NCBI RefSeq assembly: GCF_002979915.1
Contig: NZ_PCQA01000003.1
Coordinates: 1-64,000 of the forward strand
DNA: 64,000 nucleotides
Direction: 5' to 3'
Origin: Arthrobacter sp. MYb213
GTDB taxonomy: Bacteria > Actinomycetota > Actinomycetes > Actinomycetales > Micrococcaceae
The position numbers were made by a program, and so were the translations under genes. Positions 45,322-60,350 of the stretch are shown here, piece by piece (position 1 is the stretch's first letter; every line of letters begins with the position of its first letter). The notes under the pieces were generated by a model. It was not told the DNA's origin, searched no databases, and saw only the letters and a list, made by a program, of their open reading frames with translations.

Positions 45322-46638
45322 CTACTGAACTGCCGACTGCATTTCATTGAATGCATTTTGTGCAGCATCTTGTGTTGTCTGGCGCTTGAAGAAGATTTCC
45401 ATTTCGTAACGGTACAAGATGTCTTGAATCTTACTGAACCCCATAGGTGGAATCGGCTCGGTTCCGGCAAGCTCTTCCTCAATACCGGTCACGAAATCAG
45501 CTGAAGCCGCTTCAATCGGCTGAAGGTCTGAAACAACTAACTCACGGATTTCAGTATTCGCAGGCAAACCGCGATCCATCTTGTTCAGCTCGCCCGCTTC
45601 TTCCGAATTCACCATGAAGTCAATAAACTTCTTAGTTTCTTCAGGATGCTTTGACTTGCTGTATCCGGACATCAGCATCGATGATTTGTACCAGAGCCCA
45701 TTGTCCTGAGCATTGCCCGAGGCGCTTGGGAGACGTAACGGCACTAAGTCGACACCGGCCGCAGCGGACAACGAACCAAGCTGGTTACTCCACCACATCC
45801 CAAACGCAGACGTTCCCGTTCCTGTCATCGAACGATCGGGGCCAGCATTTTGATTTTCGGCCAGAACAGAGGCTACCGGATAGGATCCATTATCCAGCAG
45901 ATCCTGGTGGTGCTGGAAATATCCCGCAAGATCCTCGACGGTTAGCCCTAGTTCTCCAGATTCATTAGTCAAGTGCTTATCAGACTGTCGTAACCACGTC
46001 TGCAATCCTGCCGGTTCGTTGGGCGCCTCGGATCCATATTTTCCCTCCACCTTCTCACTGACCGTCTCGGTGATTTCCCGATAGTCGTCCCATGTCCAGG
46101 TTTTATCGTCTGGAACGTCGAGCCCAGCTTCCTTCAACACCTTAGGATTTGCCGTCAGAGTGAACGAGTTAATTCCCGTCGTGATGCCAACTAAACCATT
46201 TTCAGTGGTTCCATTGGAAATGGATACCTCTTCAAATTTCGAAACATCGACACCATCAAGATCGAGCAGTGCCCCTCGATCCGCGTATTCACGAAGATAC
46301 TTGTCATCCATCTGAATGATGTCCGGAGCATCGTTCGAAGCAACCTGAGTAGCAAGCTTGTCCCAGTACCCACTCCAGTCCGAATACTCACCTTGAATAT
46401 CAATATTCGGATTCTTCGCTTCGAAGGCCTCGATAATCTTATTTGTTGCCTGTGCGCGAGAGTCTGAACCCCACCAAGCGAAGCGTAAACTCACCTTTCC
46501 ATCTGCACTATCGGCCGCATTTCCTCCTCCGCCACATCCCGTTAACGCCAGTGCGGCGACTGCCGTAATGGCAAGAGATCTAGCGAGACGATTACCGGCC
46601 ACACGATGCGCGGCACCAGAGCGTTGTTGTTTGTTCAT
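45322..46638 (-). CDS. ABC transporter solute-binding lipoprotein (carbohydrate type)
   Basis: A 438-residue family 1 (MalE/UgpB-like) sugar-binding protein. An N-terminal basic region and hydrophobic stretch end in the lipobox ALTGC with Cys35, so it is lipid-anchored outside the membrane. Features: LRFAWWGSDSRAQATNKIIEAFEAKNPNI, WDKLATQVASNDAPDIIQMDDKYLREYADRGALLDL, MTGTGTSAFGMWWSNQ. AAGGAGGAG precedes ATG 46638. A LacI operator lies on its promoter. The two permeases are about 10 kb away in the same apparent regulon. Confidence 0.94.
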   Translation of the reverse strand: MNKQQRSGAAHRVAGNRLARSLAITAVAALALTGCGGGGNAADSADGKVSLRFAWWGSDSRAQATNKIIEAFEAKNPNIDIQGEYSDWSGYWDKLATQVASNDAPDIIQMDDKYLREYADRGALLDLDGVDVSKFEEVSISNGTTENGLVGITTGINSFTLTANPKVLKEAGLDVPDDKTWTWDDYREITETVSEKVEGKYGSEAPNEPAGLQTWLRQSDKHLTNESGELGLTVEDLAGYFQHHQDLLDNGSYPVASVLAENQNAGPDRSMTGTGTSAFGMWWSNQLGSLSAAAGVDLVPLRLPSASGNAQDNGLWYKSSMLMSGYSKSKHPEETKKFIDFMVNSEEAGELNKMDRGLPANTEIRELVVSDLQPIEAASADFVTGIEEELAGTEPIPPMGFSKIQDILYRYEMEIFFKRQTTQDAAQNAFNEMQSAVQ

Positions 46639-46710
46639 GGGCTCCTCCTTGGATGGGCGAAAACTCGCAGAGGTTAAGTCAGCGGCGAGCCATAAATACG
46701 TTCCCTATTC

Positions 46711-46726
46711 GGGAAAGCGCTTCCCC
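46711..46726. promoter_or_regulatory. LacI operator 1 (solute-binding protein promoter)
   Basis: GGGAAAGCGCTTCCCC, a 16-base near-perfect palindrome around AAGCGCTT. It lies just downstream of the -10 of the solute-binding protein gene, over the expected transcription start. It shares the core GGAAAGCGC and the TTCC arm with the other two operators in this window. Confidence 0.8.
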
Positions 46727-46729
46727 TGT

Positions 46730-46759
46730 AATCTAGATGTGATTCACTTCACAAGTCAA
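46730..46759 (-). promoter_or_regulatory. promoter of the solute-binding protein gene
   Basis: On the minus strand -35 TTGACT (46754-46759), 18-base spacer, -10 TAGATT (46730-46735), immediately followed by operator 1. Same layout as at operator 2. Confidence 0.7.
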
Positions 46760-46825
46760 GAGCTTGAGGGAAATTGTTGATGACACCTTTGAATCGCACG
46801 ATCCACAAAAGGTATCGCTGTGGAA

Positions 46826-47833
46826 TTAACGCTCCGTACTCTCGCGCAATACCGGAGTTCCAGTCATCACAACCAGCTTCGAATTACTGTGGGCAACAAC
46901 CATTTCACCGGCAAGTCGTCCGATTTCCTCCAAAGGTAAACGAGCTGTGGAAATCGATGGGGTGACGTCACCCAGCGTTGGGATATCATCAAATCCGGCA
47001 ATCGCTACATCTTCCGGGATACGTAATCCACGCTCCCTTATGGCACGAATTGCACCAAGAGCCATCACGTCAGAAACGCAAAATACGCAAATCTGATTTG
47101 CAGTCTCCTGAGATTCAGCTTGGTCAAGATAATCACCCATCGCCAAGTAGCCTCCCTCCCTTGAGAATGCGCCATACAGGGCGGTTTCCACCGGGACGCC
47201 GGAACGCTTAAGCTTCCCAGTAAAACCATCTGCCCTATGCTTTGCCGTCATGTAGTCCGGATTTCCAGCCAACACAACAAACCGACGATGCCCAGCCTTG
47301 AGCAATTCGCCAGCCAGCTCGCTCGCAGCACCCTCATTGTCGAGCTGAATCCCGCCCGTGGCAGGGAATGGCTGTCCAATCATGGCGACCTGTCCGCCGT
47401 TCGTTTGATAGCTTTCCAGCAGCTCCGCCAACTCGTGATCTTCACTGAATCGACGTGACCCGGACAGGATGATCGCATCAGTGCGGTGAGACATAAAGGC
47501 ACGTACCGCTAAAGCCTCACGATCTGCCTCTCCCCCTGTACTTGTAAGCAAAAGCTGAATCCCATTTGCCTGGATCCCTTTCTGCACGCCTCGTGCAATT
47601 GACGAGAAATAGGGGTCGGCGATGTCATGCACCACAAGTCCAATGAGCTTCGTCGATGCCCGGGCAAGCGCTTGCGCCTGAGCATTGGGAAAATACCCAA
47701 GCTTCTGGGCCGCAGCACGGACTTTCTCGGAGATTTCCTCGGCCGGCTTTCGCGCCGACCCATTAAGTACACGGGACGCGGTTGCCAATGAAACTCCAGC
47801 TTCATCAGCCACGTCAGTCAGTCGAATAGCCAC
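46826..47833 (-). CDS. LacI family transcriptional regulator
   Basis: A 335-residue regulator: helix-turn-helix and hinge helix at 1-58 (IRLTDVADEAGVSLATASRVLNGSARKPAEEISEKVRAAA) and a periplasmic-binding-type effector domain (LIGLVVHDIADPYFSSIARGVQKGI, VCFVSDVMALGAIRAIRERG, AIAGFDDIP). GTG 47833 has AAGGA upstream. It sits inside the sugar cluster, divergent from the first catabolic gene, so it most likely binds the three AAAGCGC palindromes described here and is released by a cluster intermediate. Confidence 0.93.
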   Translation of the reverse strand: MAIRLTDVADEAGVSLATASRVLNGSARKPAEEISEKVRAAAQKLGYFPNAQAQALARASTKLIGLVVHDIADPYFSSIARGVQKGIQANGIQLLLTSTGGEADREALAVRAFMSHRTDAIILSGSRRFSEDHELAELLESYQTNGGQVAMIGQPFPATGGIQLDNEGAASELAGELLKAGHRRFVVLAGNPDYMTAKHRADGFTGKLKRSGVPVETALYGAFSREGGYLAMGDYLDQAESQETANQICVFCVSDVMALGAIRAIRERGLRIPEDVAIAGFDDIPTLGDVTPSISTARLPLEEIGRLAGEMVVAHSNSKLVVMTGTPVLRESTER

Positions 47834-47892
47834 ATGAAATCCTTATCACCCATTGCAATTTCGAACAAGCATAACCCCAACCCCAGTGATGG

Positions 47893-47921
47893 TTGACACA
47901 GCAATTTACTAACACTATCGT
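47893..47921 (+). promoter_or_regulatory. promoter of the oxidoreductase-DUF993 operon
   Basis: Perfect -35 TTGACA (47893-47898), 17-base spacer, -10 TATCGT (47916-47921). Operator 2 begins at the next base, so bound repressor would block initiation. Confidence 0.8.
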
Positions 47922-47935
47922 GGAAAGCGCATTCC
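47922..47935. promoter_or_regulatory. LacI operator 2
   Basis: GGAAAGCGCATTCC, directly downstream of the -10 and over the expected transcription start. It is the exact reverse complement of operator 3. It lies between the divergent lacI-family gene and the first catabolic gene and could also mediate autoregulation. Confidence 0.85.
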
Positions 47936-47980
47936 CAAGATCTTTCTCAGCAGATTTCCACAGTTCAAGGAGCCCTCTAC

Positions 47981-49147
47981 ATGTCCGAAACACGAGTCCT
48001 GCGCATCGCAATGAACGGCATCACCGGGCGCATGGGGTACCGTCAACACCTCGTGCGCTCCATCCTGCCTATCCGCGATCAAGGCGGCATCACCCTCTCC
48101 GATGGCACCAAGGTTACTGTCGAGCCAATCCTAGTGGGCCGCAACGTAGACAAGCTCAAAGAGCTAGCAGCCCTGCATAATGTCGAGCACTACACGACTG
48201 ACCTAGACTCGCTGATCAATGATCCTTCCATTGACATAATTTTTGATGCATCGATGACTTCACTTCGCTACAACACATTGTCTAAGGCAATTGCTGCTGG
48301 CAAACATGTATTCACGGAGAAACCAACTGCAGAAACACTGACCGAAGCGATCGAACTTGCCCGGCAGGCTTCAAGGAGTGGTGTGACCGCCGGTGTAGTT
48401 CACGACAAGCTCTACCTTCCTGGTCTAGTTAAGTTGCGCCGCTTGGTTGATGAAGGCTTCTTCGGGCGAATCCTTTCCCTACGTGGGGAGTTCGGGTACT
48501 GGGTATTCGAAGGTGAGATACAAGAAGCTCAGCGTCCTTCATGGAACTATCGCTTAGCAGATGGTGGCTCGATGACCACCGACATGTATTGCCACTGGAA
48601 CTATGTACTTGAAGGGATCATCGGCAAGGTTAAGTCCGTAACTTCCAAGACCGCGACGCATATTCCAACACGATGGGATGAAAAAAACGAGGCTTATGAT
48701 GCTACGGCCGACGACGCCGCATACGGAATTTTCGAACTTGAAACGCCACAGGGCGACGAAGTAACTGCGCAGATCAACTCCTCTTGGGCAGTGCGTGTTT
48801 ACCGCGACGAACTTGTCGAGTTCCAGATTGACGGTACACATGGTTCGGCTGTAGCAGGCCTGAACAAGTGTGTTGCACAGCAACGCGCCCACACCCCAAA
48901 ACCTGTTTGGAACCCCGATTTACCAGTCACAGAGTCCTTCCGCGACCAGTGGCTAGAGGTTCCCGCAAACGGTGACTTAGACAACGGATTCAAACTTCAG
49001 TGGGAAGAATTCCTCGCCGATGTCCAAACCGGGCGGGAACACCGATATGGTTTACTTTCAGCTGCGCGTGGCGTGCAGCTTGCCGAACTTGGTTTGCAGT
49101 CCGCTGCCGAACGTCGCACCATCGACATCCCGGAAATCACGCTATGA
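47981..49147 (+). CDS. Gfo/Idh/MocA family oxidoreductase (first of three)
   Basis: A 388-residue NAD(P)-dependent sugar dehydrogenase-like protein. N-terminal Rossmann fold with GITGRMG (13-19) and the catalytic-Lys motif EKP (113-115), then a C-terminal alpha/beta domain. AAGGAG precedes ATG 47981. First gene of a five-gene operon with DUF993, TIM-barrel, Gfo-DUF6807 and M24-like genes. It may oxidise a sugar hydroxyl (C1 or C3), which cannot be told from sequence. Confidence 0.93.
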   Translation: MSETRVLRIAMNGITGRMGYRQHLVRSILPIRDQGGITLSDGTKVTVEPILVGRNVDKLKELAALHNVEHYTTDLDSLINDPSIDIIFDASMTSLRYNTLSKAIAAGKHVFTEKPTAETLTEAIELARQASRSGVTAGVVHDKLYLPGLVKLRRLVDEGFFGRILSLRGEFGYWVFEGEIQEAQRPSWNYRLADGGSMTTDMYCHWNYVLEGIIGKVKSVTSKTATHIPTRWDEKNEAYDATADDAAYGIFELETPQGDEVTAQINSSWAVRVYRDELVEFQIDGTHGSAVAGLNKCVAQQRAHTPKPVWNPDLPVTESFRDQWLEVPANGDLDNGFKLQWEEFLADVQTGREHRYGLLSAARGVQLAELGLQSAAERRTIDIPEITL

Positions 49148-50400
49148 GCGCCACTGAGGATCTTCCAAAAATAGACTTGCCGAACGAGCATGGCGAGATA
49201 TTCGGCTACACCCTTTCTGGCCCGGGTAACTTCCAACGTCCTACCGGTCCAATCCGTTCGCGCAAAGCCTATGCGGCGGCACATGTTGTCCCGCAAATGA
49301 CAGCCGACAACACCCCGGGAGCGGTCGCGTCCTTAGATTGGGAGGCTACTCTTGCATATCGCCACGAGTTGTGGTCGTACGGGTTCGGAGTCGCCGACGC
49401 AATGGATACCGCTCAGCGTGGCATGGGCTTAGACTATTCCGCCACCCAAGAGTTAATACGGCGCTCAGCGGCCGAAGCTGCCAAAGTTGTAGGAGAATCA
49501 CGATATCCTGCGCTGGCTGGCCGTACCGTTCGCGATTTGCTTGCCTGCGGTGCAGGAACAGACCAGTTGGACCCCGCCACCATTCAACCAGGCGATTTGA
49601 AGCCTGTCACGGATGCCTACCTGGAGATGTTGCAACACGTAGAAGATTCCGGGGCGAAGGTGATCCTCATGTGTTCCCGCGCCCTAGTTAAGGCCGCAAG
49701 GAACGCAGAGGACTATGTAAAGGTGTATTCCACTTTGCTAGAAGCTGCTGCTGAACCAGTTATCCTTCATTGGCTGGGTGAAATGTTTGATCCCGCCCTC
49801 GCTGGATATTGGGGAGGGGAAAGCATTGAGCAATCAACCAACACCTTTATCGAACTATTGGAAGCACATGCGTCAAAAATCGATGGGGTGAAAGTTTCTT
49901 TGCTCGATGCCGAGCACGAAAAGTACTTGCGGTCTCGCCTTCCGAACGGAGTGCGTCTCTATACTGGAGACGATTTCAACTATCCGGAACTCATTCACGG
50001 CGACGGAACTGAACACTCAGATGCCCTGCTCGGGATCTTCGCTGCCATATATCCCGCGGCTTCGACCGCACTGCAAGCCTTTGATGCAGGGCAAGAATTA
50101 CGAGGTCGAGAAATTCTGGATTCGACCCGAGAACTGGGACTGCACATCTTCTCGGCTCCGACGTTCTACTACAAGACGGGCATTGCTTTTCTGTCCTGGC
50201 TCAATGGACACCAAACGGGCTTCCAAATGGTCGGCGGTCTGCAAGCTGGCCGCTCGGTCCTGCATTTGGTACGCACTTTCGTCTTGGCCGACAAAGCCGG
50301 ACTACTACTCAAACCAGAGCTCGCAGCGCGGCGCATGAGCCAACTGCTTGAAATTAACGGCATCAAAGCCTCGATCCCTACTTTGACTGGAGTCTCATGA
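49144..50400 (+). CDS. DUF993 family, dihydrodipicolinate synthase-like aldolase
   Basis: A 418-residue TIM-barrel protein of DUF993. The candidate Schiff-base lysine is Lys250 in IDGVKVSLLD, placed as in the DHDPS/NAL motif GxK. The usual Tyr motif (YNxP) is replaced by ILHWLGEMFDP. It may cleave or form a C-C bond in a keto sugar (acid). ATG 49144 overlaps the preceding stop (ATGA). The DUF993 family is known next to Gfo/Idh/MocA and isomerase genes; its reaction is unproven. Confidence 0.85.
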   Translation: MSATEDLPKIDLPNEHGEIFGYTLSGPGNFQRPTGPIRSRKAYAAAHVVPQMTADNTPGAVASLDWEATLAYRHELWSYGFGVADAMDTAQRGMGLDYSATQELIRRSAAEAAKVVGESRYPALAGRTVRDLLACGAGTDQLDPATIQPGDLKPVTDAYLEMLQHVEDSGAKVILMCSRALVKAARNAEDYVKVYSTLLEAAAEPVILHWLGEMFDPALAGYWGGESIEQSTNTFIELLEAHASKIDGVKVSLLDAEHEKYLRSRLPNGVRLYTGDDFNYPELIHGDGTEHSDALLGIFAAIYPAASTALQAFDAGQELRGREILDSTRELGLHIFSAPTFYYKTGIAFLSWLNGHQTGFQMVGGLQAGRSVLHLVRTFVLADKAGLLLKPELAARRMSQLLEINGIKASIPTLTGVS

Positions 50401-51305
50401 GCTTCGCACTTTCTTTGAATACCGGTACCACCCCGACGCTAAATCTCCGTGAAGCGGTACAGCTGAGCGCCGAGGCAGGACTCACTCACATCGGGCCATG
50501 GCGCCATCTCATTTCCGACGTTGGAGGCGCTGCTGAAGCGGCCAAAATTATTACCGACGGCGGCCTGAAAGCCAGCACGCTGTGCCGAGGAGGCTTCCTG
50601 ACAGCAAATTCAAAACAGGGCCAAGCCGCGGCGCTGGAGGCAAACCGGGAAGCCATCCGCGAAGCCGGGATCATCGGTGCGGATGAGTTGATCATGGTGG
50701 TCGGAGGGTTACCAGCCGCTGCACACGTGCTTGGCGGCGAAGGTGAGCGCAGCGACAAGAATATCGCCTCTGCTCGCGAGCGTGTGGCCCGGACTTTAGA
50801 CGATCTGGTTCCTTACGCACTCGAACACGGCGTACGTTTGGTACTCGAAGCGCTTCACCCGATGTATGTTGCCGACCGCGCAGTCCTCTCGACACTTGGT
50901 CAGGCCTTGGACCTCGCCACTCCTTACCCGACAGCGGCGGTAGGGGTCGTAGTAGACACCTTCCACGTCTTTTGGGATCCCCAGCTACAGCAACAGATCC
51001 AACGCGCCGGGCTTGAGAACCGTCTAGCTAGCTACCAGATTTGCGACTTCAACCTCCCTCTTGCCAATGACGCATTGAAGTCCCGGGGGATGATGGGCGA
51101 TGGATACGTCGATTTCGAAACGATATCTCGGTGGGTATCAAAGGCCGGATATCGTGGTCCTGTGGAGGTGGAGATATTTAATGAGCAAATCAACAGTCAA
51201 CCACCTGCGCAGACCCTCGCCACGATGGCCGAACGCTACACCGAACTGGTGCTTCCACATCTGAATGAGGCTGCCGGAATTGTCCCCGCAGACGTTGCTC
51301 TTTAA
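50397..51305 (+). CDS. sugar phosphate isomerase/epimerase-like TIM barrel (AP endonuclease 2 family)
   Basis: A 302-residue xylose isomerase-like TIM barrel. Metal-site segments are visible: VRLVLEALHPMYV (Glu), GVVVDTFHVFWDPQL (Asp/His), YQICDFNLPLAN (Asp) and VEVEIFNEQIN (Glu), the usual order in IolE/IolH/keto-epimerase relatives. It overlaps the DUF993 stop (ATGA). Likely isomerises, epimerises or dehydrates a sugar intermediate of the pathway. Confidence 0.9.
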   Translation: MSFALSLNTGTTPTLNLREAVQLSAEAGLTHIGPWRHLISDVGGAAEAAKIITDGGLKASTLCRGGFLTANSKQGQAAALEANREAIREAGIIGADELIMVVGGLPAAAHVLGGEGERSDKNIASARERVARTLDDLVPYALEHGVRLVLEALHPMYVADRAVLSTLGQALDLATPYPTAAVGVVVDTFHVFWDPQLQQQIQRAGLENRLASYQICDFNLPLANDALKSRGMMGDGYVDFETISRWVSKAGYRGPVEVEIFNEQINSQPPAQTLATMAERYTELVLPHLNEAAGIVPADVAL

Positions 51306-51344: not shown

Positions 51345-53471
51345 ATGACCGACTTTTTCCCGCACCCATCCGTGGCAACAAAGGTTCCCGGCATAAAAAC
51401 TCCGGCGATCGCTCTAGTAGGACTCAACGGATTCGGAAGGCAGCATCTTCTGAATATCCATCGTCTAGTGAAGCTGGGGAAGATCCGATTTGTCGCGGGC
51501 GCCGGACCAGATGATCCTGGTCCTGCTATCCGTGGCGAAGACACACCGATCTTCGCCTCATTAGACTCTCTCATCGCTTCTGGGATCAAGCCGGATATCA
51601 TCATCGTCTCCACACCCATCAACACCCACTACGAGCTAGCGATGAGCGCTCTGGCAACTGGGGCTGACCTATACCTAGAGAAGCCTCCAACCGCGACGCT
51701 TGAACAGTATGAGCGACTGCTAACTGCCACGAGGGCAGCGGGCATCAGGGTGCAAGTTGGTTTTCAGGCGATTGGCTCCAAAGCGCTGGAGGCAATCGAA
51801 GAATTCTTTTGTGGAGATCCAGAACAATCTCCCATTGGTACTTTGCGCGCGGTAGGCGCCAGCGGAACGTGGGTTCGAACCAAGGGTTATTACGATCGGG
51901 CACCGTGGGCCGGACGCCGTACGCTCAACGGGAAACATATCGCAGACGGCGTCATTACCAATCCACTAGCCCACGCAGTGATGAGCGCCTTGCATATCGC
52001 TGGAGCCCGCCTAACCAGCGATATTGCAGAACTTTCAACCGAGCTCTATCACGCACACAATATCGAAGCCGATGACACCTCAGTGGTGCGGCTGAAAACT
52101 ACTTCTGGAATTCCTGTCACTGCCGCCCTGACTGTGTGCGCATCAGAGCAACGAGACCCGTGGATCACCATCTACGGCACAGAGGGTCAAGCGACCCTGT
52201 ATTACACCCGCGATGAACTTGTAGTCCAACCGAATCCCGAGTCGGGCAAAGAAGAATACATTTGCACTTTTGGCCGTACGAACTTGCTGGAGAACCTCGT
52301 TGATTTTCAGCGAGGAGACGCACCCGCGCTGCTATGCCCGCTGGAATCCGCCGGCGCTTTTATGCAGGTTTTGGAACATGTGCGCACCGCTCCTGCGCCT
52401 AGCGCATTGCCGGTCGCTGAGATCCACTACGAAGGCCAAGGCTCCGAATATCATCCAGTCATACCAAACATTGAACAATTTATTGATCGGGCAGTCTCAG
52501 CTCAAAGTGGATTCTCGTCACTGGATGCACCCTGGGCCCCGCCGGCTCATTTCAGCGGTACCTTGAAACTGAGAAATCCACAGAATTCCGAACAAGTAAT
52601 TGTCGCTAGACGCCGCACTGGGTCCGATATAGCACCGACTAACTCTCCACGCCCCTTCTTGGACCAACTGTGCACTTTGTCTGGCGTAGTCCTTTGCGCG
52701 CAGCAACCACTGGATCACACTTGGCATCTCGGTGTGGGCGTTGCCTTGCAAGACGTCAATGGAACAAATTTCTGGGGTGGCCGAACTTTTACCCGCGATG
52801 CCCTACGTTACATCTGGCGCAAAGACCACGGTCTGATTCGCACCGTGAGCGAACATTTCGACGAGACGAGGCAAACCGTAGACTCACATTTAGAATGGGT
52901 TGATCATCACCAGAAAGTCCTCATGGACGAACGCCGCAGGGTCAGCGCAGAAGGTTTCAGAGTTGACGGCACCGAAGGATGGGTTTTAGATTTCAGCTTC
53001 ACCCTTAGCAGCCGGGAACACACCGTCTCTCTAGGTTCACCCGGTTCCAACGGACGTGAAAGGGGAGGTTATGGCGGCTTCTTCTGGCGCTTGCCGAGTG
53101 TCAACCACGGTGAGATTTACACCGAGGCACACCACGGCGAGGAGCAGGTCCACGGAACGAAAAGCGACTGGCTTGCTTTCAGCGCGGACTTTTCCGCAGA
53201 CAGTGTGCCCTTGAATTCAAAAACCACCGGGCACGGTCGAGCAACACTTTTGTTCTGTTCCTCCGACGATGACCCTTGGTTTGTGCGATACGCGGGTTAC
53301 CCAGGAATTGGCAGCTCGCTTGCCTGGGACCGCCCCGTTTATCTCAGGCCACACAGCTCGATCACTCGAAATATGCGAGTCTTAGTCGTTGACGGAACCT
53401 TGAGCAAAACCCAGGCGTCGATCTTCGCAGAACACCTCCGAAACCAGCCAGCACTGGAAGCCAACGGATGA
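51345..53471 (+). CDS. Gfo/Idh/MocA oxidoreductase fused to DUF6807 (PmoA-like) domain
   Basis: A 708-residue fusion. About 1-375 is a Gfo/Idh/MocA dehydrogenase (GLNGFG 26-31, EKP 112-114, GVITNPLAHAVMSALHIAG). About 425-700 resembles the DUF6807/PmoA-like family (PFLDQLCTLSGVVL, HTWHLGVGVALQDVNGTNFWGG, GGYGGFFWRLPS), often called methane oxygenase PmoA by name only. The two families are normally separate neighbours, so fusion suggests consecutive steps or channelling. AGGAC lies six bases before the ATG. Confidence 0.9.
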   Translation: MTDFFPHPSVATKVPGIKTPAIALVGLNGFGRQHLLNIHRLVKLGKIRFVAGAGPDDPGPAIRGEDTPIFASLDSLIASGIKPDIIIVSTPINTHYELAMSALATGADLYLEKPPTATLEQYERLLTATRAAGIRVQVGFQAIGSKALEAIEEFFCGDPEQSPIGTLRAVGASGTWVRTKGYYDRAPWAGRRTLNGKHIADGVITNPLAHAVMSALHIAGARLTSDIAELSTELYHAHNIEADDTSVVRLKTTSGIPVTAALTVCASEQRDPWITIYGTEGQATLYYTRDELVVQPNPESGKEEYICTFGRTNLLENLVDFQRGDAPALLCPLESAGAFMQVLEHVRTAPAPSALPVAEIHYEGQGSEYHPVIPNIEQFIDRAVSAQSGFSSLDAPWAPPAHFSGTLKLRNPQNSEQVIVARRRTGSDIAPTNSPRPFLDQLCTLSGVVLCAQQPLDHTWHLGVGVALQDVNGTNFWGGRTFTRDALRYIWRKDHGLIRTVSEHFDETRQTVDSHLEWVDHHQKVLMDERRRVSAEGFRVDGTEGWVLDFSFTLSSREHTVSLGSPGSNGRERGGYGGFFWRLPSVNHGEIYTEAHHGEEQVHGTKSDWLAFSADFSADSVPLNSKTTGHGRATLLFCSSDDDPWFVRYAGYPGIGSSLAWDRPVYLRPHSSITRNMRVLVVDGTLSKTQASIFAEHLRNQPALEANG

Positions 53472-54574
53472 ATGCTCAGCCTCCGGAAACCGAACAACAG
53501 TTAAAACACGAGAAGATGGTGCAACTTCTAGATACATTCGACGCCGACGGCATACTGCTTTCGAGCTCTGCCTCGCTGTCTTGGTTCCTAAGCGGTGCAC
53601 GCACTCATGTCTCGCTAGCTGGCCCACCGGTCGTGCGTGTTTTGGTTCACCGGGAGGGGTATGAAGTGGCGGTACCTATCAGCGAAGCAGCTAGGGTGCA
53701 GAACGAAGAACTACTTGACACACCTTTGCTTAGGGTACACATTCTGGATTGGTATGAATCTCTGGATGATTTCGCCAGATGGTTCTCTGAAGTAGCTGCT
53801 CACCGAATACTAAACGAAGCGCAGGTAGAGCCGGAACTTCGGATGTTACGCACGGTGCTAGTGCCAGAAGAAATATCGAGATACAGGAAGTTGTGCCAAG
53901 ACACCGCGAGTATTTTTACCCAGGTACTCTCCATGGCGACACCAATGGATTCCGAACGGGAACTCGCTGCACGATTAAGCGCGGCCGCCGTGGAAATTGG
54001 CGGCGAGGTCTTGGTTGCCCTAGTTTGTGGTGAGGAGCGCTCGACTTACCGCCACCCATTACCCACTCAGGCCCACTTGGGACGACGCGCAATGGCAGTT
54101 CTTTGCGTCCGCCGCCACGGGTTAATCGCGAACGTGACTAGGTGGGTAAGGTTTGGCACTGCCAGCCCCGGAGAAATACTTGCCGAGCAGTCGATCCTTG
54201 AAGTCGAGCGGGAAATCTTGGCTGCGTTGGTTCCCGGAACAAAGCTGAAATCCGTGTTACCGGTGATCGCTCAGGCTTATCCAGCTCATGGCTTCAGCGC
54301 AACTGAATGGCGCAACCACCATCAAGGCGGCGTTGCGGGCTACAACGGTAGAGATCCGAGACTCACGCCAGAGGTGACAGACGCTATCCGATGTTTTCAA
54401 TCATTTGCGTGGAACCCCAGCGCGCTTCGGGACGGCCAATGTTTCAAAGTGGAAGACACCATGCTACTCACGGAGGGTTCTGGGAAGCCAACGTTAGAGG
54501 TGCTCAGCGTTGACCCATTGTGGCCGACAGTACGCGTGGGTAGGCTTGCTCGACCTTCAGTTTTAGAGCTTTAA
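53468..54574 (+). CDS. M24-fold (creatinase/aminopeptidase P-like) protein with lost metal ligands
   Basis: A 368-residue protein with an N-terminal creatinase-like domain (1-130) and a C-terminal pita-bread fold. Of the five metal ligands of M24 peptidases, the first Asp region reads AVLCVRRHG (211-218), the second Asp is Asn222 (ANVTR), and the first Glu is Asn316 (FAWNP). His284/285 and Glu329 (KVEDTMLLTE) remain. It is thus unlikely to be a metallopeptidase and may, like creatinase, hydrolyse a C-N bond without metal. ATGA overlap with the previous gene. Confidence 0.8.
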   Translation: MNAQPPETEQQLKHEKMVQLLDTFDADGILLSSSASLSWFLSGARTHVSLAGPPVVRVLVHREGYEVAVPISEAARVQNEELLDTPLLRVHILDWYESLDDFARWFSEVAAHRILNEAQVEPELRMLRTVLVPEEISRYRKLCQDTASIFTQVLSMATPMDSERELAARLSAAAVEIGGEVLVALVCGEERSTYRHPLPTQAHLGRRAMAVLCVRRHGLIANVTRWVRFGTASPGEILAEQSILEVEREILAALVPGTKLKSVLPVIAQAYPAHGFSATEWRNHHQGGVAGYNGRDPRLTPEVTDAIRCFQSFAWNPSALRDGQCFKVEDTMLLTEGSGKPTLEVLSVDPLWPTVRVGRLARPSVLEL

Positions 54575-54584
54575 ACCCGGAAAT

Positions 54585-54621: not shown

Positions 54622-54633
54622 CTTATCGGTTGA

Positions 54634-55542
54634 TTAGTCTTGTTGGCTAAGTTCAGTGCGCCAGCTGCGTCGCGGCTCCCAGCCAAGTACTTGGCGTGCC
54701 TTGTCGCTACTAAACGCAGGGGAGGTCCCCGTCAGCTTGCTGGCCAAATCACGAAGTTCGGGATAGCTCTGCGGAATTAGCTCGGCCAGCGGTTCGGTAG
54801 CCAACGCATCGGCGGCGCCAACGAAAAAGACATCGCCATTATCGACTCGATCAAATTTTTCAAGCAACATCAATAAGAAGTCACATACATCTCGGGCATC
54901 TACGTAGTTGAACAATGCTGGAGCCGAAAGTGACGGATCTGCCAGGCGTTCGCGAACCGTATGTCCCTGCTGAGTTGGCGAGCCCTCCCATTCCTCTTCA
55001 GCAATCACGAAACAAGGTCTAAAAGACGCAAATTTAACCGTACTGTCGGGCCCCTGCTGCGCCGCGAACATTGCTGCAATCTGCTCGGCAACGTACTTTG
55101 AGAGTCCGTATGCGTGCCAAGGACGCGGAGTTTCCTGTTCGTCCAGAGGCAGTCGGCTCGGAATCCAACCGCTGGGGGCGCCATATCCCATTATTGAAGG
55201 ACTGGAAGCGAGGACTATTTTTGTAGACCCCACGGCAACCGCAGCGGCGACAACGTTGTGTGCGATCGATGCGTTAGTTCTTAACAGCACTTCCTCTGGT
55301 GCCATGAAGGGCACAGCCAAAGCGGCCAGGGAGATCACTGAGGTCGGTTTATGATGCACGAATAATTTGATTGTTGCTGCGGCATCTAGGAGATCAACTC
55401 GCTGATAGTTCACCGCAGGAACCGGCTCCTGTGGCAATTCTTTGTCGACGGAAATGACCTGATGCCCAGCTGCAGCAAACCCTGTTACAACTGCACGGCC
55501 GAGCCTGCCGGATCCTCCGGTGATGATTATGGTTTCACGCAT
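54634..55542 (-). CDS. extended SDR family NAD(P)-dependent oxidoreductase/epimerase
   Basis: A 302-residue Rossmann protein. Cofactor motif TGGSGRLG (8-15), Asp33 after beta-2 suggests NAD preference, and catalytic Tyr145-xxx-Lys149 (YGLSK), with Ser113/114 in LASSPS. Resembles UDP-sugar epimerases and uronate dehydrogenases. Last gene of the permease-permease-Gfo-SDR unit, four bases after the Gfo stop. It could oxidise a free sugar or uronate, or epimerise an intermediate. Confidence 0.88.
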   Translation of the reverse strand: MRETIIITGGSGRLGRAVVTGFAAAGHQVISVDKELPQEPVPAVNYQRVDLLDAAATIKLFVHHKPTSVISLAALAVPFMAPEEVLLRTNASIAHNVVAAAVAVGSTKIVLASSPSIMGYGAPSGWIPSRLPLDEQETPRPWHAYGLSKYVAEQIAAMFAAQQGPDSTVKFASFRPCFVIAEEEWEGSPTQQGHTVRERLADPSLSAPALFNYVDARDVCDFLLMLLEKFDRVDNGDVFFVGAADALATEPLAELIPQSYPELRDLASKLTGTSPAFSSDKARQVLGWEPRRSWRTELSQQD

Positions 55543-55546
55543 GTGT

Positions 55547-56902
55547 TCAGAGCTTCACTTTCTCTACCCGTTTGAAATCTACGCCGAATTCTGCCTCAGA
55601 TACACGCTGAGATGTCCCCGTAATCAGGGAATCATTAGCGCAAACACCGATTGCAATGGCACGTACGCCATCTCTGAATCCTGCCTGACGGCTGTACTGG
55701 TCTTCGTCGGCACCGCGTAAAAGTTCAGTTAGCAAGAGTGCGTCGCCACCCCCATGAGAACCTTTTCCGTTGATAATTTCTAGCTCTACTGCCGATTCCC
55801 AATGACGCTGCAAGACCAGACGGTCGCCTTTGCATCGCACAGCCGAGTTTTGCGCATCGTCGCTGACTGACGGGTCAACGGGACTAGCCCCGGACGCAGG
55901 AAGCACCGCTGCACGTTCCACAACGTTGAGTTCCAGCCGTCCTTTTGTACCGTTCACCGCGACACTGTAGCCCTCCCATGGGCTGTGTGCATTTAATGAA
56001 TAATTGAGCACCGGTCCGTCCTCGTACTGCACTATCACCGCGAGGTTGTCTTCAATGGAGATTTCCCCTTGGAAGACTCCCTGATCGCGTCTATATCCAT
56101 CAAAGTGCTCGTTATCTAGATAGAGGTGTTCAAGCCGTTCGTCCGTGTGCAAATCAAGATCAAAAGGTTCGCTTTCGCTGTTTGCGTGTGTCCCTCTGTC
56201 GCTCGGAATTATTCCTCGATCTTCGGCATTCTTGGCGCCATAGAATTTCAATCCGCCTGCCGCGTAGACCGACGAAGGCGAATCGTCTAGCCACCAGTTA
56301 ACTAGGTCAAAGTGATGGCTTGATTTGTGCACAAGTAGGCCACCAGAATTTTCCTTGAGCCGGTGCCAGCGGCGGAAGTAATCCGCACCATGGACGGTGT
56401 CGAGCATCCAACTAAAGTCCACGGAAGTTACCTCACCGACTAGCCCATCCGCGATCGCCTTTTTAAGTGCGGTATTTCGAGGTGAATACCGATAATTAAA
56501 GGTGACAATCACTTCTCTCCCTGTTCGTTCAACTGCTTGGGCGATCCGCCGTGTGCTTTCGGAATCAACAGTTAGTGGCTTCTCAACGATGACGTCAGCG
56601 CCGGCTTCTAGACAAGTGCAGATCAGGTCAGCATGCGTGTAATCCGGGCTGGTGATAATGGCCCGGTCTATTTTCTGCTCGCGAATGTACTGGGCGAGAA
56701 TCTCTGGATCAAAAACATCAACCTGTTCTCCGAAGGTTTGTTCAATGACATCCAGGTAATACTCAGTGCGTCCCGGGTTGGTATCGCTCAAGGCCACCAG
56801 TTCCGCAACGTCTGCATGATCGCCAAGGATCGCGGTGAGGTACATTTCGCAACGGTTGCCAGTACCTATCAAGACGTATCGGATTCGTTTATGATTGTTC
56901 AT
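55547..56902 (-). CDS. Gfo/Idh/MocA family oxidoreductase (third of three)
   Basis: A 451-residue dehydrogenase with YVLIGTGNRCEMY Rossmann loop, EKP motif and a long C-terminal domain carrying GGLLVHKSSHHFDLVNWWLDD, as in glycosidase/oxidoreductase members. Starts are ATG 56902 or GTG 56911; neither has a perfect ribosome site. An intrinsic terminator lies directly upstream (56937-56963), so expression may depend on read-through or a separate promoter. Confidence 0.92.
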   Translation of the reverse strand: MNNHKRIRYVLIGTGNRCEMYLTAILGDHADVAELVALSDTNPGRTEYYLDVIEQTFGEQVDVFDPEILAQYIREQKIDRAIITSPDYTHADLICTCLEAGADVIVEKPLTVDSESTRRIAQAVERTGREVIVTFNYRYSPRNTALKKAIADGLVGEVTSVDFSWMLDTVHGADYFRRWHRLKENSGGLLVHKSSHHFDLVNWWLDDSPSSVYAAGGLKFYGAKNAEDRGIIPSDRGTHANSESEPFDLDLHTDERLEHLYLDNEHFDGYRRDQGVFQGEISIEDNLAVIVQYEDGPVLNYSLNAHSPWEGYSVAVNGTKGRLELNVVERAAVLPASGASPVDPSVSDDAQNSAVRCKGDRLVLQRHWESAVELEIINGKGSHGGGDALLLTELLRGADEDQYSRQAGFRDGVRAIAIGVCANDSLITGTSQRVSEAEFGVDFKRVEKVKL

Positions 56903-56936
56903 CAAATTCACTGCCTACTCGTTATTTGCAAGGAAA

Positions 56937-56963
56937 ATGGGCTCGGCTTGTCACCGAGCCCAT
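56937..56963 (-). terminator. intra-operon intrinsic terminator
   Basis: Perfect ten-base-pair stem ATGGGCTCGG (56937-56946) / complement (56954-56963) with a seven-base loop, followed on the minus strand by TTTT. It lies between the second permease and the third Gfo gene, in the same direction. Confidence 0.82.
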
Positions 56964-56976
56964 GCGCTGTAGTTCG

Positions 56977-57951
56977 TTATTTGATACCGGTGGTAGCGAT
57001 TCCCTTGATCAAGAACTTTTGACCGAAGAGGAACGCAAGGAATACCGGTACAAGAGTAACGATCGACATGGCAAACAATGCTCCCCAATTTGATTCACCT
57101 GTTGAATCGATGAAGGCATTCAATGCCACCTGAACCGTGTAGTTACTTGGATTTGTCAGGTATATCAGTGAGGTGAAGAAGTCACTCCACGTCCAAATGA
57201 AAGTGAAGATCGCGGTGGTGGCCAGCGCAGGAACCATCAGTGGCAAAATGATCTGGAAAAAGGTTCGAGCGTGCCCTGCACCGTCGATGCGTGCAGCCTC
57301 ATCCATGTCTCTAGGAATGCCACGGATGAACTGGATCATCAAGAAAATGAAGAACGCGTCGGTCGCCAATAGCTTCGGAACGATAATTGGCCAGAAGGTG
57401 TTAACCCAGCCGATTTGGGAGAACATGATGTACTGCGGAACTATGATGACGTGGATTGGAAGCATGATCGTCATCAGCATGAGTACGAACATAGTCTTCT
57501 TAAATTTGAATTCGAGCCGAGCGAAAGCATAGGCCGCCATTGAACAGGAAACCAAGTTCCCCAAAATGCAGCCAATGACAATAATGGCCGAGTTCATCAG
57601 ATATTTGCTAAATGGTTCCGAAAGCGCGTCCCAGCCGTTGGGATAGTTTTCCCACTCCACATTAGCGATCACCAGACCAGCTTCGCGGAAGATCAGGTCG
57701 TTCGGCCTGAAGGAGCTGGCTATCATCCATAACAGCGGGTAGATCATAACCAGCGCAGCCAGGATCAGGATGGTGTGCTTGATTAACGAACGCGCACGTG
57801 CGCGTCCACTAGGTCGATAGCCTTTAACCTTCTTACCATTTGAATCAGTTCCGCCTACCGGCGGCTGACCTCCGAGCATGGCAGCCTCGTCCAGTCCCGA
57901 TACTTGAGTCCCGTCGAGATCATTGTGCGAAATTGAAGTCTGATTAGTCAT
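56977..57951 (-). CDS. carbohydrate ABC transporter permease (MalG/UgpE-like)
   Basis: A 324-residue inner-membrane permease with six helices and a long N-terminal cytoplasmic stretch (about 1-48). The ATPase-binding EAA loop reads FIRGIPRDMDEAARIDGAGHARTFFQIILPLMVPAL. Ends with GQKFLIKGIATTGIK, typical for CUT1 MalG-type proteins. It overlaps the upstream permease by eight bases. No ATPase gene is nearby; a shared MsmK/UgpC-type ATPase is probably used. Confidence 0.95.
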   Translation of the reverse strand: MTNQTSISHNDLDGTQVSGLDEAAMLGGQPPVGGTDSNGKKVKGYRPSGRARARSLIKHTILILAALVMIYPLLWMIASSFRPNDLIFREAGLVIANVEWENYPNGWDALSEPFSKYLMNSAIIVIGCILGNLVSCSMAAYAFARLEFKFKKTMFVLMLMTIMLPIHVIIVPQYIMFSQIGWVNTFWPIIVPKLLATDAFFIFLMIQFIRGIPRDMDEAARIDGAGHARTFFQIILPLMVPALATTAIFTFIWTWSDFFTSLIYLTNPSNYTVQVALNAFIDSTGESNWGALFAMSIVTLVPVFLAFLFGQKFLIKGIATTGIK

Positions 57952-58870
57952 CGTAGAACACCCAATACTTAGAAACGAAGAAGTTCAGCGCCGTGAAACC
58001 ACCGACGATTATGACCAGCAGCCAAGCCATCGCCGAGGCGTAACCCATATCGAATTGCTTGAAACCCTGTTGGTACAGATACAAGGTGAAGAACATCGTT
58101 GAGTCCGCCGGGCCTCCCGAACCGTTGGAAACGATGAACGCCTGAGTGAAGTTTTGGAAGGCTCCAATGACCTGAAGTACCAAGTTGAAGAATATGATCG
58201 GGCTGAGCATCGGAATGGTGATACTCAGGAACTGACGCCATTTGTTCGCTCCATCGATCGAGGCTGCCTCATAATACATTGCGGGGATCTGCCGAAGCCC
58301 GGCGAGAAAAATTACCATCGGAGAACCGAAGGTCCACACGTTGAGCAGGATCAGGCTGCCCAATGAGGTATCTGGATCCGAAATCCACCCCATCCCTTCG
58401 ATGCCCACCAACCCGAGAAGTTGGTTGACCAGGCCGGTAGTTCCAAAGATCTGCTTCCAGAGCACAGCAATGGCAACCGATGAACCGAGCATTGAAGGCA
58501 GATAGAAGATCGAACGATAGAACGATAGTCCACGCATTCCACGGTCTAGCAACATTGCAACGCCTAGCGCGACACCAAGTTGGAGGGGAACACCCACTAG
58601 CACGTAGGTGAACGTCACGCGCAGCGAATTATGGAGCCGATCATCGCTGAGCATGCGCTCGATGTTTTCCATACCGGTAAATTCCGGCGCTTGCAAAAGG
58701 TTATAGTCCGTAAAGGAAAGATACAGGGACATTGCCATTGGACCCAAGGTGATCAGGAATAATCCGATGGTCCATGGCAACAAAAAGATGTGCCCTGCCT
58801 TATTATCCCTGGTAGGCGACTTTTGCCCTTTGGTTTTACTCAGTCTTGATAATTCAGCAATGGCACTCAT
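57944..58870 (-). CDS. sugar ABC transporter permease (MalF/UgpA-like)
   Basis: A 308-residue six-helix permease of CUT1. EAA loop: LAGLRQIPAMYYEAASIDGANKWRQFLSITIPMLSPI. ATG 58870 (MSAIAELSRLSKTKG) follows GAGGGCG and gives the usual short N terminus before HIFLLPWTIGLFLITLGPM; the frame extending to 59044 would cross operator 3. First gene of the leftward transport-oxidoreductase unit. Confidence 0.95.
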   Translation of the reverse strand: MSAIAELSRLSKTKGQKSPTRDNKAGHIFLLPWTIGLFLITLGPMAMSLYLSFTDYNLLQAPEFTGMENIERMLSDDRLHNSLRVTFTYVLVGVPLQLGVALGVAMLLDRGMRGLSFYRSIFYLPSMLGSSVAIAVLWKQIFGTTGLVNQLLGLVGIEGMGWISDPDTSLGSLILLNVWTFGSPMVIFLAGLRQIPAMYYEAASIDGANKWRQFLSITIPMLSPIIFFNLVLQVIGAFQNFTQAFIVSNGSGGPADSTMFFTLYLYQQGFKQFDMGYASAMAWLLVIIVGGFTALNFFVSKYWVFYDD

Positions 58871-59147
58871 TGACCAACGCCCTCGTTCAAATGAGCCCTT
58901 AGAGACCCAAGGCGAGTGTGGACCAACATGACTGACTCCTCGGTTTGATGCTTCTCGCGAAGCTAAATGACATATTGTCGGAATGCGCTTTCCAATACCT
59001 GTTCCACAACGGTAAACTAAACAGCAACGTGAGGTCAACCACATTGAGTGTCGTTACTAGCTCAACGTCCAACGAATCTTCCAAATACATCTGGAACCAG
59101 CTCCATCATGGCTGGCGTTCCACTTGCCGAAACGGAGAAATATTACT
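58871..59147. other. divergent regulatory region of the permease and enolase-family genes
   Basis: 277 bases without a convincing gene. It carries operator 3 (58980-58993). For the rightward gene a -10-like TATTGT (58973-58978) abuts the operator, as at operator 2. For the leftward permease TTGACC (minus, 59033-59038) is a possible -35 with a poor -10. The short frame 59048-59356 has no family resemblance. Confidence 0.55.
58980..58993. promoter_or_regulatory. LacI operator 3
   Basis: GGAATGCGCTTTCC, the exact reverse complement of operator 2. It lies between divergent transport and enolase-family genes, suggesting control of both by the cluster LacI regulator. Confidence 0.85.
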
Positions 59148-60350
59148 TTGCCGCAAGTCAGCAACGAAAAATCGGACTTCATCCAATCTATCGAACTGAT
59201 CCTAGTTTCCATGCCGTTCGATGCCGGACGGCAAGAACGCAGTTATTCCATTGTGGAATCGGTCGATGCTTTCAACGCATCTTCACGGGGTTTTACGCAT
59301 ATGGAGTCACTCATGGTGAAAGTCCGCACCAAGCAAGGGCTCACGGGTTGGGGTGAAGCTTTCGGGCACAAATCTAATCCTGCAACGTGGGCATCGTTAG
59401 AGCACATAGTAGGACCGTTCTTCATCGGGAGACATACCGACATCGCTGAAGCCATAGGTGAAGCCGAATACGCATTCCATGCTTTCGGGCGGACCGGTCC
59501 AGTCCACTACGCGTTGTCAGCCATAGATATTGCGCTGTGGGATATCGCTGCTCAACAGGCCGGCGTGACGTTGCGGGAATACCTTGAGCCTGGCGCGCGG
59601 AACCATGTCAACGCCTACGCTTCACTGGTGCATTATGCCGAAGACCCGCTGGAGGTTTCACACCATGTGAGCCAAGCTCAACAGCTGGGATTTAAAGCGT
59701 TCAAACTCCACGAATCCACACCCGCGGCCATCGCTGCTGCCCGCGAGAGCGCTGGCGACGCAGCACTCATGGTCGATGTGAACTGTGCGTGGAGTCTGGA
59801 CGGGGCCCGACAAGCAATGGAGCAGCTTGAAGAGCTGCAGCTTCTCTGGGTCGAGGAACCTATCTTTCCGCCGGATGCTACGGCCGCATTGCGCGAACTC
59901 AACTCTCAATTCTCGAACGTCTCTGCCGGGGAAAACCACTCAGGAGTCGCTGGCCTCATCGATGCGATGGGATCCGGAGCGCTAAGCTTTGCACAACCCA
60001 GTGTTGGAAAAATTGGTGGTATCTCCGGGATGCTCGAGGTTCGTCGAGCTGGCAAGCGACTCGGTATTCCCGTAATCCCCCACTGTTTTTACTACGGACC
60101 CGCGTTGCTAGCGACCGCGCAACTGGTGGCGCTCGATCCTCCACAGCGCCATACGGATGGAAGGTCTCTTCCCGAGTTGGAAATTCCGTTTGTGAATTGG
60201 GAACATACTTTGCACTCACTGCATGCACCACACCAATCAGGCATGGACCAGCACGGAGTAGTACAGCTACCTCAGAGACATGGACTCGGATTCGAACCCG
60301 ATGAGCAGATGATAGAGACCTATCTCGTGAAACGGCTGTTGCTTATCTAA
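59148..60350 (+). CDS. enolase superfamily (mandelate racemase/muconate lactonizing) protein with atypical active site
   Basis: A 400-residue acid-sugar dehydratase-like protein. Metal ligands are present: Asp210 (VDVN), Glu236/237 (WVEEP) and Glu262 (SAGEN). The base His312 is in IPHCFYY. But the usual KxK reads K186-L-H188 (FKAFKLH), and the Asp of the His-Asp dyad (QPD) is Ser285 (QPSVGKIGG). Substrate could be an aldonate or lactone. Start TTG 59148 has GGAG 11 bases upstream; TTG 59124 is the alternative. The stop overlaps the convergent GDPD gene by four bases. Confidence 0.87.
   Translation: MPQVSNEKSDFIQSIELILVSMPFDAGRQERSYSIVESVDAFNASSRGFTHMESLMVKVRTKQGLTGWGEAFGHKSNPATWASLEHIVGPFFIGRHTDIAEAIGEAEYAFHAFGRTGPVHYALSAIDIALWDIAAQQAGVTLREYLEPGARNHVNAYASLVHYAEDPLEVSHHVSQAQQLGFKAFKLHESTPAAIAAARESAGDAALMVDVNCAWSLDGARQAMEQLEELQLLWVEEPIFPPDATAALRELNSQFSNVSAGENHSGVAGLIDAMGSGALSFAQPSVGKIGGISGMLEVRRAGKRLGIPVIPHCFYYGPALLATAQLVALDPPQRHTDGRSLPELEIPFVNWEHTLHSLHAPHQSGMDQHGVVQLPQRHGLGFEPDEQMIETYLVKRLLLI

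Follow-up and report, generated by a model that had tools for sequence, protein, structure and literature searches.

Several described systems resemble, each in part, a cluster of twelve genes located at positions 45322-60350 of a 64,000-nucleotide stretch of the Arthrobacter sp. MYb213 genome (contig NZ_PCQA01000003.1, positions 1 to 64,000; hereafter the window). The cluster encodes the solute-binding protein (SBP) and two permeases of an ATP-binding cassette (ABC) transporter, a LacI-family regulator, three Gfo/Idh/MocA dehydrogenases (GIM1, GIM2 and GIM3, the second fused to a DUF6807 domain), a DUF993 protein, an AP_endonuc_2 TIM-barrel protein (TIM), an M24-fold protein, a short-chain dehydrogenase/reductase (SDR) and an enolase-family protein. 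It is composed of two joined modules, module A being LacI-GIM1-DUF993-TIM and module B comprising the transporter, GIM2-DUF6807, M24, SDR, GIM3 and the enolase-family gene. Relatives are named below by stretch (L) or genome (G). On plasmid pAO1 of Paenarthrobacter nicotinovorans, relatives of GIM1 (82% identical) and DUF993 (66%) are adjacent and are accompanied by an ABC transporter, an aldehyde dehydrogenase and a glycerate kinase. However, no TIM, DUF6807 fusion, M24, GIM3, SDR or enolase gene is annotated in the stretch shown, the regulator is of the GntR rather than the LacI type, and the ABC transporter has its own ATPase. The GIM1, DUF993 and glycerate kinase genes (L102, 10820-14364) are present on pAO1, which is typed as conjugative, and on five Arthrobacter plasmids of similar size. 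The oxidative uronate pathway proceeds through uronate dehydrogenase, galactarolactone cycloisomerase or galactarate dehydratase, KdgD and alpha-ketoglutaric semialdehyde dehydrogenase. The gene row in module B of L163, L165, L174 and L177 matches this order, whereas in the window's cluster KdgD and the aldehyde dehydrogenase are missing and DUF993, TIM, the DUF6807 fusion and M24 are additional.

On the pSymB megaplasmid of S. meliloti strain Ak57 (L098), the SBP, two permeases (54-56% identical), GIM1, DUF993, TIM and GIM3 (37.5%) are encoded together, so the association spans phyla. This locus differs in having a TetR regulator and an enolase-family protein with no match to that of the window, and no DUF6807 fusion or M24 protein is annotated there. 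Relatives of the S. meliloti type have solved structures for DUF993 (4dnh) and TIM (3ju2), both titled uncharacterized. From the gene numbering, we take a second S. meliloti cluster to be SMc04130-SMc04139, with SMc04130 presumably the protein of 3ju2 and SMc04132 presumably the DUF993 gene. A table in the accessible part of a PhaR study gives negative values for SMc04132, SMc04133, SMc04135, SMc04138 and SMc04139 (PMC12542648). By analogy, the nearest worked-out mechanism of similar build is the levoglucosan pathway (lgdA-lgdB1-lgdB2-lgdC), which, in the part of its description available, likewise combines a LacI regulator, an ABC importer, Gfo/Idh dehydrogenases and TIM-annotated enzymes and begins with oxidation (PMC7676230). 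It differs in ending in glucose, and the same part of that paper describes no DHDPS-like (dihydrodipicolinate synthase-like) lyase, enolase-family or DUF6807 protein (PMC7676230). The terms Arthrobacter, oxidoreductase and rhamnogalacturon- do not occur in the accessible main text of a paper on LacI regulons (PMC4052901).

Our analysis indicates that the twelve genes very probably constitute one LacI-type regulon, which relatives probably tie to the pectin component rhamnogalacturonan I. With moderate confidence, we propose that the regulon would import and oxidatively degrade, without prior phosphorylation, a sugar or uronide derived from rhamnogalacturonan I. The genes, and the operators in their intergenic gaps, are as follows.

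45322..46638, minus strand: ABC-transporter solute-binding protein (SBP); Pfam SBP_bac_8/SBP_bac_1; orthologs in contiguous clusters
46712..46725, no strand: LacI-type operator GGAAAGCGCTTCCC in the SBP promoter, 74 bp upstream of SBP; perfect
46826..47833, minus strand: LacI-family regulator; Pfam LacI and Peripla_BP_3; homolog at 69/80 DUF993 loci
47922..47935, no strand: LacI-type operator GGAAAGCGCATTCC in the divergent LacI/GIM1 gap; perfect
47981..49147, plus strand: GIM1, Gfo/Idh/MocA dehydrogenase of module A; Pfam; 79/80 loci; PDB relative 3oqb
49144..50400, plus strand: DUF993 protein of module A, candidate DHDPS-like lyase/aldolase; Pfam DUF993, 565 bits
50397..51305, plus strand: AP_endonuc_2 TIM-barrel protein of module A, candidate isomerase/dehydratase; Pfam; 78/80 loci
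51345..53471, plus strand: GIM2-DUF6807, fusion of a Gfo/Idh/MocA dehydrogenase with DUF6807; Pfam
53468..54574, plus strand: M24 (pita-bread fold) protein without the metal aspartates; Peptidase_M24, 31.5 bits, cut-off 23
54634..55542, minus strand: extended SDR of the Epimerase family with YxxxK (Y145, K149); Pfam and alignment
55547..56911, minus strand: GIM3, Gfo/Idh/MocA dehydrogenase; Pfam
56977..57951, minus strand: ABC permease 2; Pfam BPD_transp_1
57944..58870, minus strand: ABC permease 1; Pfam BPD_transp_1; start moved from 59044
58980..58993, no strand: LacI-type operator GGAATGCGCTTTCC in the divergent permease 1/enolase-family gap; perfect
59124..60350, plus strand: enolase-superfamily (MR_MLE) protein, candidate sugar-acid dehydratase/cycloisomerase; Pfam MR_MLE_C/N

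Listing of the open reading frames (ORFs) confirmed all twelve genes and Pfam confirmed their families, in agreement with an earlier note on this DNA. The DUF993 gene start was refined to 49144, and permease 1 probably starts at 58870, giving 308 residues as in its L142 ortholog. SBP and LacI are read leftward; GIM1-DUF993-TIM-GIM2/DUF6807-M24 are read rightward, with overlaps or gaps of no more than about 40 bp; permease 1-permease 2-GIM3-SDR are again read leftward and the enolase-family gene rightward. Pfam analysis detected no glycoside hydrolase (GH), sugar kinase or ABC ATPase among the twelve genes; the transporter would therefore have to be served by a shared ATPase.

The regulatory evidence comes from a single palindrome, GGAAWGCGCWTYCC, common to all three regulatory gaps (46712, 47922 and 58980). 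A search of the 3.785-Mb genome without mismatches gives these three places and no others, all of them in intergenic gaps of the cluster, compared with about 0.15-0.31 expected genome-wide from base composition. Allowing one mismatch yields four further genome places, not more than a reversed-pattern control, and allowing two mismatches yields 9 matches in the window, compared with a shuffled mean of 4.1 and with 9 reached in 3 of 100 shuffles; only the perfect sites therefore carry weight. Since the operator pattern was written from these three sites, its independent support is conservation in relatives. We located relatives of DUF993 at at least 588 places in species-representative genomes and used the best 80 as loci, 21 of which are cut by a contig end; Proteobacteria were covered through plasmid records only. 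A perfect site lies in the gap upstream of GIM1 at 26 of the 79 other loci, and a site with at most one mismatch at 32 of the 79, compared with 0/79 for the reversed pattern. Streptomyces loci have a variant operator or none, as judged by a scan with a 16-base rule that several sites elsewhere escaped.

Twelve other genomes carry the cluster in contiguous form (L142, which is the same as L002 and L144; L143; L145; L169; L170; L171; L172; L179; L181; L182; L183, which is the same as L004 and L141; and L184). Nine of these have all twelve genes, and L145, L170 and L182 have ten or eleven within the stretch examined. Wherever the stretch of a contiguous cluster covers the LacI/GIM1 gap, the site there is perfect. 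The permease 1/enolase site is perfect in eight (L142, L143, L145, L170, L179, L181, L182 and L184) and has one mismatch in L169, L171, L172 and L183, while L142, L143, L145, L169, L172, L181, L183 and L184 have a one-mismatch site at, or close to, the start of the SBP gene; no operator was seen at the SBP site in L171. The claim of a single LacI-type regulon made in the earlier note is thus upheld by the three perfect operators and by their retention in relatives, and from its position the LacI protein encoded here would be the repressor that binds them. Distal operator-like sites in L131, L132, L135, L136, L137 and L140 have no neighbour gene in common. In the Arthrobacter relatives L133 (11619-12521) and L134 (site 10772), a second AP_endonuc_2 gene has a one-mismatch operator-like site in or near its promoter, and an alpha/beta hydrolase gene comes after LacI; these may be extra members of the module A regulon. 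In L168 (10949-13912, G004), a Gfo/Idh gene and a cupin gene are immediately upstream of GIM1, and the GIM2/SBP interval holds a second operator.

The division into modules is apparent at the 80 best DUF993 loci, where GIM1 is present at 79, TIM at 78 and LacI at 69 (DUF993 itself at 79 by scan and 80 by construction). Each other gene of the cluster occurs at no more than 8 of the 80, and at 66 loci all eight are missing from the stretch examined; module A is therefore autonomous. Among the 80 loci it is mostly actinobacterial, with members in Chloroflexota, Gemmatimonadota and Deinococcota; it also occurs without LacI on alphaproteobacterial plasmids, and DUF993 relatives are found on 147 plasmid records, many of them rhizobial. 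Module B is more closely tied to its partner. In 149 sampled genomes of the window's family (Micrococcaceae), the window's own included, we found DUF993 in 51, GIM2-DUF6807 in 31 (E<=1e-40), M24 in 32 and GIM3 in 32 (E<=1e-70). M24 and GIM3 occupy the identical 32 genomes, of which 31 have DUF993, one of these (G042) lacking GIM2, and all 31 GIM2-DUF6807 genomes also carry DUF993. Hypergeometric probabilities for co-occurrence with DUF993 are 8e-19 (GIM2) and 2e-17 (M24), both of which overstate the case through kinship; counted by genus, GIM2 is present in 13 of 32, all within the 18 DUF993 genera (p 2.5e-5). Parts of module B also adjoin module A in L048, L024 and L041 (Micromonospora, Sediminihabitans and Saccharopolyspora), which extends the pairing beyond the window's family. 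Two genes of G066 (575 and 312 aa) were considered as a dehydratase and an aldolase and rejected, as they encode an MGH1-like GH and a GH43.

The earlier note had called the system self-contained and had named independent occurrence of its genes in relatives as one result that would speak against its reading. The description is apt for regulation in this genome but not for the gene set, which is two modules with A alone at 66 of 80 loci. Independent occurrence was indeed found, yet module B strictly co-occurs with module A, arguing for a shared function. These distributions bear on a rather unlikely alternative, in which A and B are two separate pathways, for example for the two halves of the rhamnogalacturonan repeat, and share a regulator as their substrates arrive together; this would be compatible with a pectin substrate. 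It would account for the many loci with module A and none of the other cluster genes. Moreover, module B lies apart from A in several genomes (e.g. L165 and L174); where split, it has its own LacI-like gene in L163, L165, L174, L175, L176, L177 and L180 and is without an A-type operator in L165, L174-L178 and L180. The DUF993 genes of the contiguous form also make up one supported group (100/97) in the DUF993 tree, which includes copies of two genomes (L002/L142 and L004/L141/L183). On the other hand, 31 of the 32 genomes with B also have A, a pattern that shared ecology by itself may or may not be enough to produce, and the second operator of L168 lies within module B.

The link to rhamnogalacturonan I derives from three genomes of one related genus (G072, G020 and G048), in which a protein of about 1800 residues that carries a PL11 domain is encoded between M24 and SDR (L179, L181 and L182). 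In Pfam, the L179 protein has a PL11 rhamnogalacturonan lyase domain (775 bits) together with GDSL-esterase and galactose-binding domains; its counterparts in L181 and L182 are 73-76% identical, and the PL11 domain was confirmed there. Upstream of the conserved start of the PL11 gene, all three stretches share the same 17-base operator, TTGGAAAGCGCAATCCA, which departs from the consensus at one position. By eye, the start of the protein resembles a signal peptide. A PL11-type gene also follows M24 in L003. PL11 was detected in 16 of the 149 family genomes, every one of which has DUF993 and 12 of which have module B. In 10 of the 16 it lies within 30 kb of DUF993, M24 or GIM3 (GIM3 places being partly covered), and these ten include G031, G079, G116 and G130, which have DUF993 without module B. 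Other neighbours of module B are a PcRGLX-type lyase (L167), GH78 with GH42 (L164), GH42 (L166 and L173), GH43 (L175 and L176) and acetyl-esterase-like genes (L162 and L174). Unsaturated rhamnogalacturonyl hydrolases belong to GH105 and GH88, neither of which is among the Pfam matches of the twelve genes, no genome-wide search for them having been made. A rhamnogalacturonan-I-derived sugar or uronide is a better candidate than the substrates suggested in the earlier note (a free sugar, inositol or a C-glycoside).

The chemistry of DUF993 would be central to such a pathway. Three alignments were made, consisting of the window and 45 of the 80 loci after a k-mer redundancy filter, of the window and 41 of 50 filter-chosen rows (nine Streptomyces rows left out), and of the window and 31 rows. 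Against the Pfam DHDPS family (PF00701), 5 of 46 members match at E<=1, the best at 5e-4. Lysine K250 is invariant in 46/46 DUF993 rows; in a weak but collinear alignment, this lysine and the motif TGDD line up with the lysine region and SGDD of DHDPS. On this basis we tentatively suggest, as a possibility, that DUF993 is a DHDPS-like Schiff-base lyase. The word DUF993 was found in no paper of the library searched. The earlier note's term "undescribed" calls for a caveat, as the GIM1-DUF993 pair is already present on pAO1. The best NCBIfam match of GIM1 is levoglucosan dehydrogenase (NF052479), at 67.3 bits and below the cut-off of 650. Profile matches of TIM are 7vpf, 3ju2 and 3qc0, followed by its nearest named relative, IolI (1i60), at 4e-19.

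Further genes in relatives suggest where the products may go. Glycerate kinase follows the enolase gene in five of the six contiguous clusters that cover this DNA (L169, L170, L171, L172 and L184); it touches module A in L017, L031, L034 and pAO1 and is about 3 kb away in L020 and L021. The simplest reading of these arrangements is that DUF993 would make a C3 unit that becomes glycerate. The row in module B of L163, L165, L174 and L177 consists of GIM3, SDR, KdgD-type, enolase-family and aldehyde dehydrogenase genes, and the KdgD-type proteins scanned (L175 and L176) score 377-378 bits with NF002958, passing its cut-off of 278. Neither KdgD nor the aldehyde dehydrogenase was found in the window's cluster or in the clusters of its clade, where the enolase subgroup differs from that of the KdgD-type rows. 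The oxidation-first scheme of the earlier note, with no kinase or GH inside the cluster, gains support from these relatives, since the 5-dehydro-4-deoxyglucarate dehydratase, aldehyde dehydrogenase and glycerate kinase that they add fit a logic of dehydrogenase, dehydratase and then aldolase or lyase.

In the M24 protein, C213 and N222 align with two aspartates of 5cdl, which we take to be metal ligands, and are each kept in at least 95% of 27 rows (the rows for M24 and SDR conservation leave out L002, L141 and L144 as copies). With Cys and Asn at these positions, the protein should therefore not be a metallopeptidase. GIM3 is nearest to IolG in NCBIfam (90 bits, below the cut-off), the enolase-family protein has its best match to TalGalacDh (118 bits, below the cut-off of 500), and the SDR has weak galE/Azf-type matches only. 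In the accessible parts of two papers, PF14100/DUF6807 is still named methane oxygenase (PMC5342196, PMC10291797), and in one of them, a metatranscriptome study, it served as a PmoA marker (PMC10291797). As DUF6807 is here the fusion partner of a sugar dehydrogenase, such marker counts may be misassigned.

In the proposed pathway, the ABC importer would bring in a saccharide or oligosaccharide, which GIM2-DUF6807, M24, GIM3 and SDR would oxidise and open or cleave. The enolase-family protein would dehydrate a sugar acid, and GIM1 and TIM would oxidise and rearrange the released monosaccharide. DUF993 would act as a retro-aldol lyase with the DHDPS fold and a Schiff-base lysine, and its C3 product would enter central metabolism via glycerate and glycerate kinase. 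A bolder and doubtful version is a GH-free oxidative route for the rhamnogalacturonan-I repeat. Here oxidation and cleavage of the imported (unsaturated) galacturonosyl-rhamnose would fall to the dehydrogenase fused to DUF6807 and to the M24 protein that lacks the metal aspartates, without GH105. DUF993 would be a new class I (lysine) lyase with a keto-sugar, not a 2-keto acid, as its substrate, and the C3 unit would reach glycolysis through glycerate kinase.

A number of observations weigh against the proposed pathway. The window genome is without PL11 (the search covered PL11 and no other lyase families), and the polymer link therefore rests on orthology; three cluster-bearing congeners (G075, G095 and G142) are also without it. 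In the genus with the in-cluster PL11, two genomes (G092 and G109) have the cluster but not this gene, and its presence in three genomes of one genus possibly reflects one event. In six of the 16 PL11 genomes the lyase gene has none of DUF993, M24 or GIM3 within 30 kb, and by genus the association of PL11 with DUF993 is only 5/5 within 18/32 (~0.04 by arithmetic). Outside module A, no neighbour is shared by more than 14 of the 80 loci, as counted with a greedy choice of non-overlapping ORFs that undercounts; on its own, module A thus has no pectin enzyme as a recurrent neighbour. M24 and GIM3 are present without DUF993 or GIM2 in G066, and GIM2 without M24 and GIM3 in G006. Regarding DUF993, a flagellar protein (0.013) outranks DHDPS (0.07-0.43) behind 4dnh in a profile search of solved structures, and an hhalign comparison with DHDPS was not significant. 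The GTTGE (GxxGE) motif of DHDPS binds the pyruvate carboxylate; its position aligns in DUF993 with DTAQRGMG, invariant or nearly so, and a 2-keto-acid substrate is therefore doubtful. DUF993 as a simple substitute for KdgD was rejected, as the two coexist in several genomes, and the KdgD-type proteins, at 284-287, stay below the stricter TIGR03249 cut-off of 374. Glycerate kinase is near only 5 of the 80 DUF993 loci and is not near the window's cluster, the sixth of the six, the copy in this genome lying elsewhere. Finally, the pAO1 relative of GIM1 has reportedly been assayed as a D-xylose dehydrogenase.

This last point introduces an unlikely alternative, an oxidative pentose pathway of the Weimberg or Dahms type, in which GIM1 would oxidise D-xylose at C1, the enolase-family protein would dehydrate xylonate and DUF993 would cleave or dehydrate 2-keto-3-deoxy-xylonate. 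The 2013 paper by Mihasan et al. on an oxidative xylose pathway of pAO1 is said to describe a dehydrogenase that prefers D-xylose, and from the ORF numbering we take this enzyme to be the pAO1 relative of GIM1, which is encoded between AldH and DUF993 and is the nearest one whose context has been published. Esterase-type neighbours in relatives (BD-FAE and AXE1-like) also suit a pentose substrate. However, a glycerate kinase beside the module would be superfluous for xylose, the linkage to pectin lyases would be left unexplained, and a XylB-family kinase that scores above its cut-off is encoded elsewhere in the genome.

A route through 3-keto-glycosides, of the levoglucosan LgdA-C or Bacteroides BT2158 type, appears quite unlikely. 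In such a route, Gfo/Idh enzymes would oxidise an imported glycoside at C3, TIM and/or DUF6807 would cleave it by beta-elimination, and a Gfo/Idh enzyme would reduce the 3-keto sugar. The parts resemble those of the B. smithii levoglucosan locus, which in the accessible part of its description has LacI, an ABC transporter, two Gfo/Idh-type and two TIM-annotated enzymes (PMC7676230). In addition, the available part of another study describes a metagenomic clone whose putative operon combines a PF14100 ORF and one of the enolase superfamily with genes for two novel beta-galactosidases (PMC5342196). Levoglucosan dehydrogenase is the best NCBIfam relative of GIM1, but its score is far under the cut-off. 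Furthermore, Pfam found no DUF1080-type hydrolase among the twelve genes, and the route would have no use for a DHDPS-like lyase, an enolase-family dehydratase, KdgD or a glycerate kinase. A cyclitol (inositol-like) pathway, in which GIM1 would form an inosose, the IolI-like TIM would isomerise or dehydrate it and DUF993 would open the ring, is very improbable: the nearest named matches of TIM and GIM3 are IolI and IolG, but these scores are under cut-offs, Pfam shows no other inositol-pathway family among the twelve genes, and pectin-lyase, KdgD and glycerate kinase neighbours do not fit.

The G+C content is 0.50-0.56 in 2-kb steps from 44 to 60 kb, compared with 0.54-0.62 in the rest of the window. 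The cluster is flanked by a gene for a GH65-HAD fusion (41014-44196) and a PfkB kinase gene (61851-62756), neither of which has a perfect operator. The GH65-HAD gene adjoins the regulon in the congeners L142/L144 (one genome) and L145 and was not seen there in L143. Between the GH65-HAD and SBP genes lies an ORF of 395 aa (44078-45265) that has no NCBIfam match; the same spot in L142, L144 and L145 holds ORFs of 325-334 aa.

Co-occurrence, a common operator and the presence of PL11 under this operator in relatives would place the orphan families DUF993, DUF6807 and metal-less M24 in a single pathway whose substrate class can be named. A function for DUF993, with its relatives at so many places, would fill a widespread gap in sugar catabolism. 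If the pectin reading is true, the window organism would live on fragments released by others.

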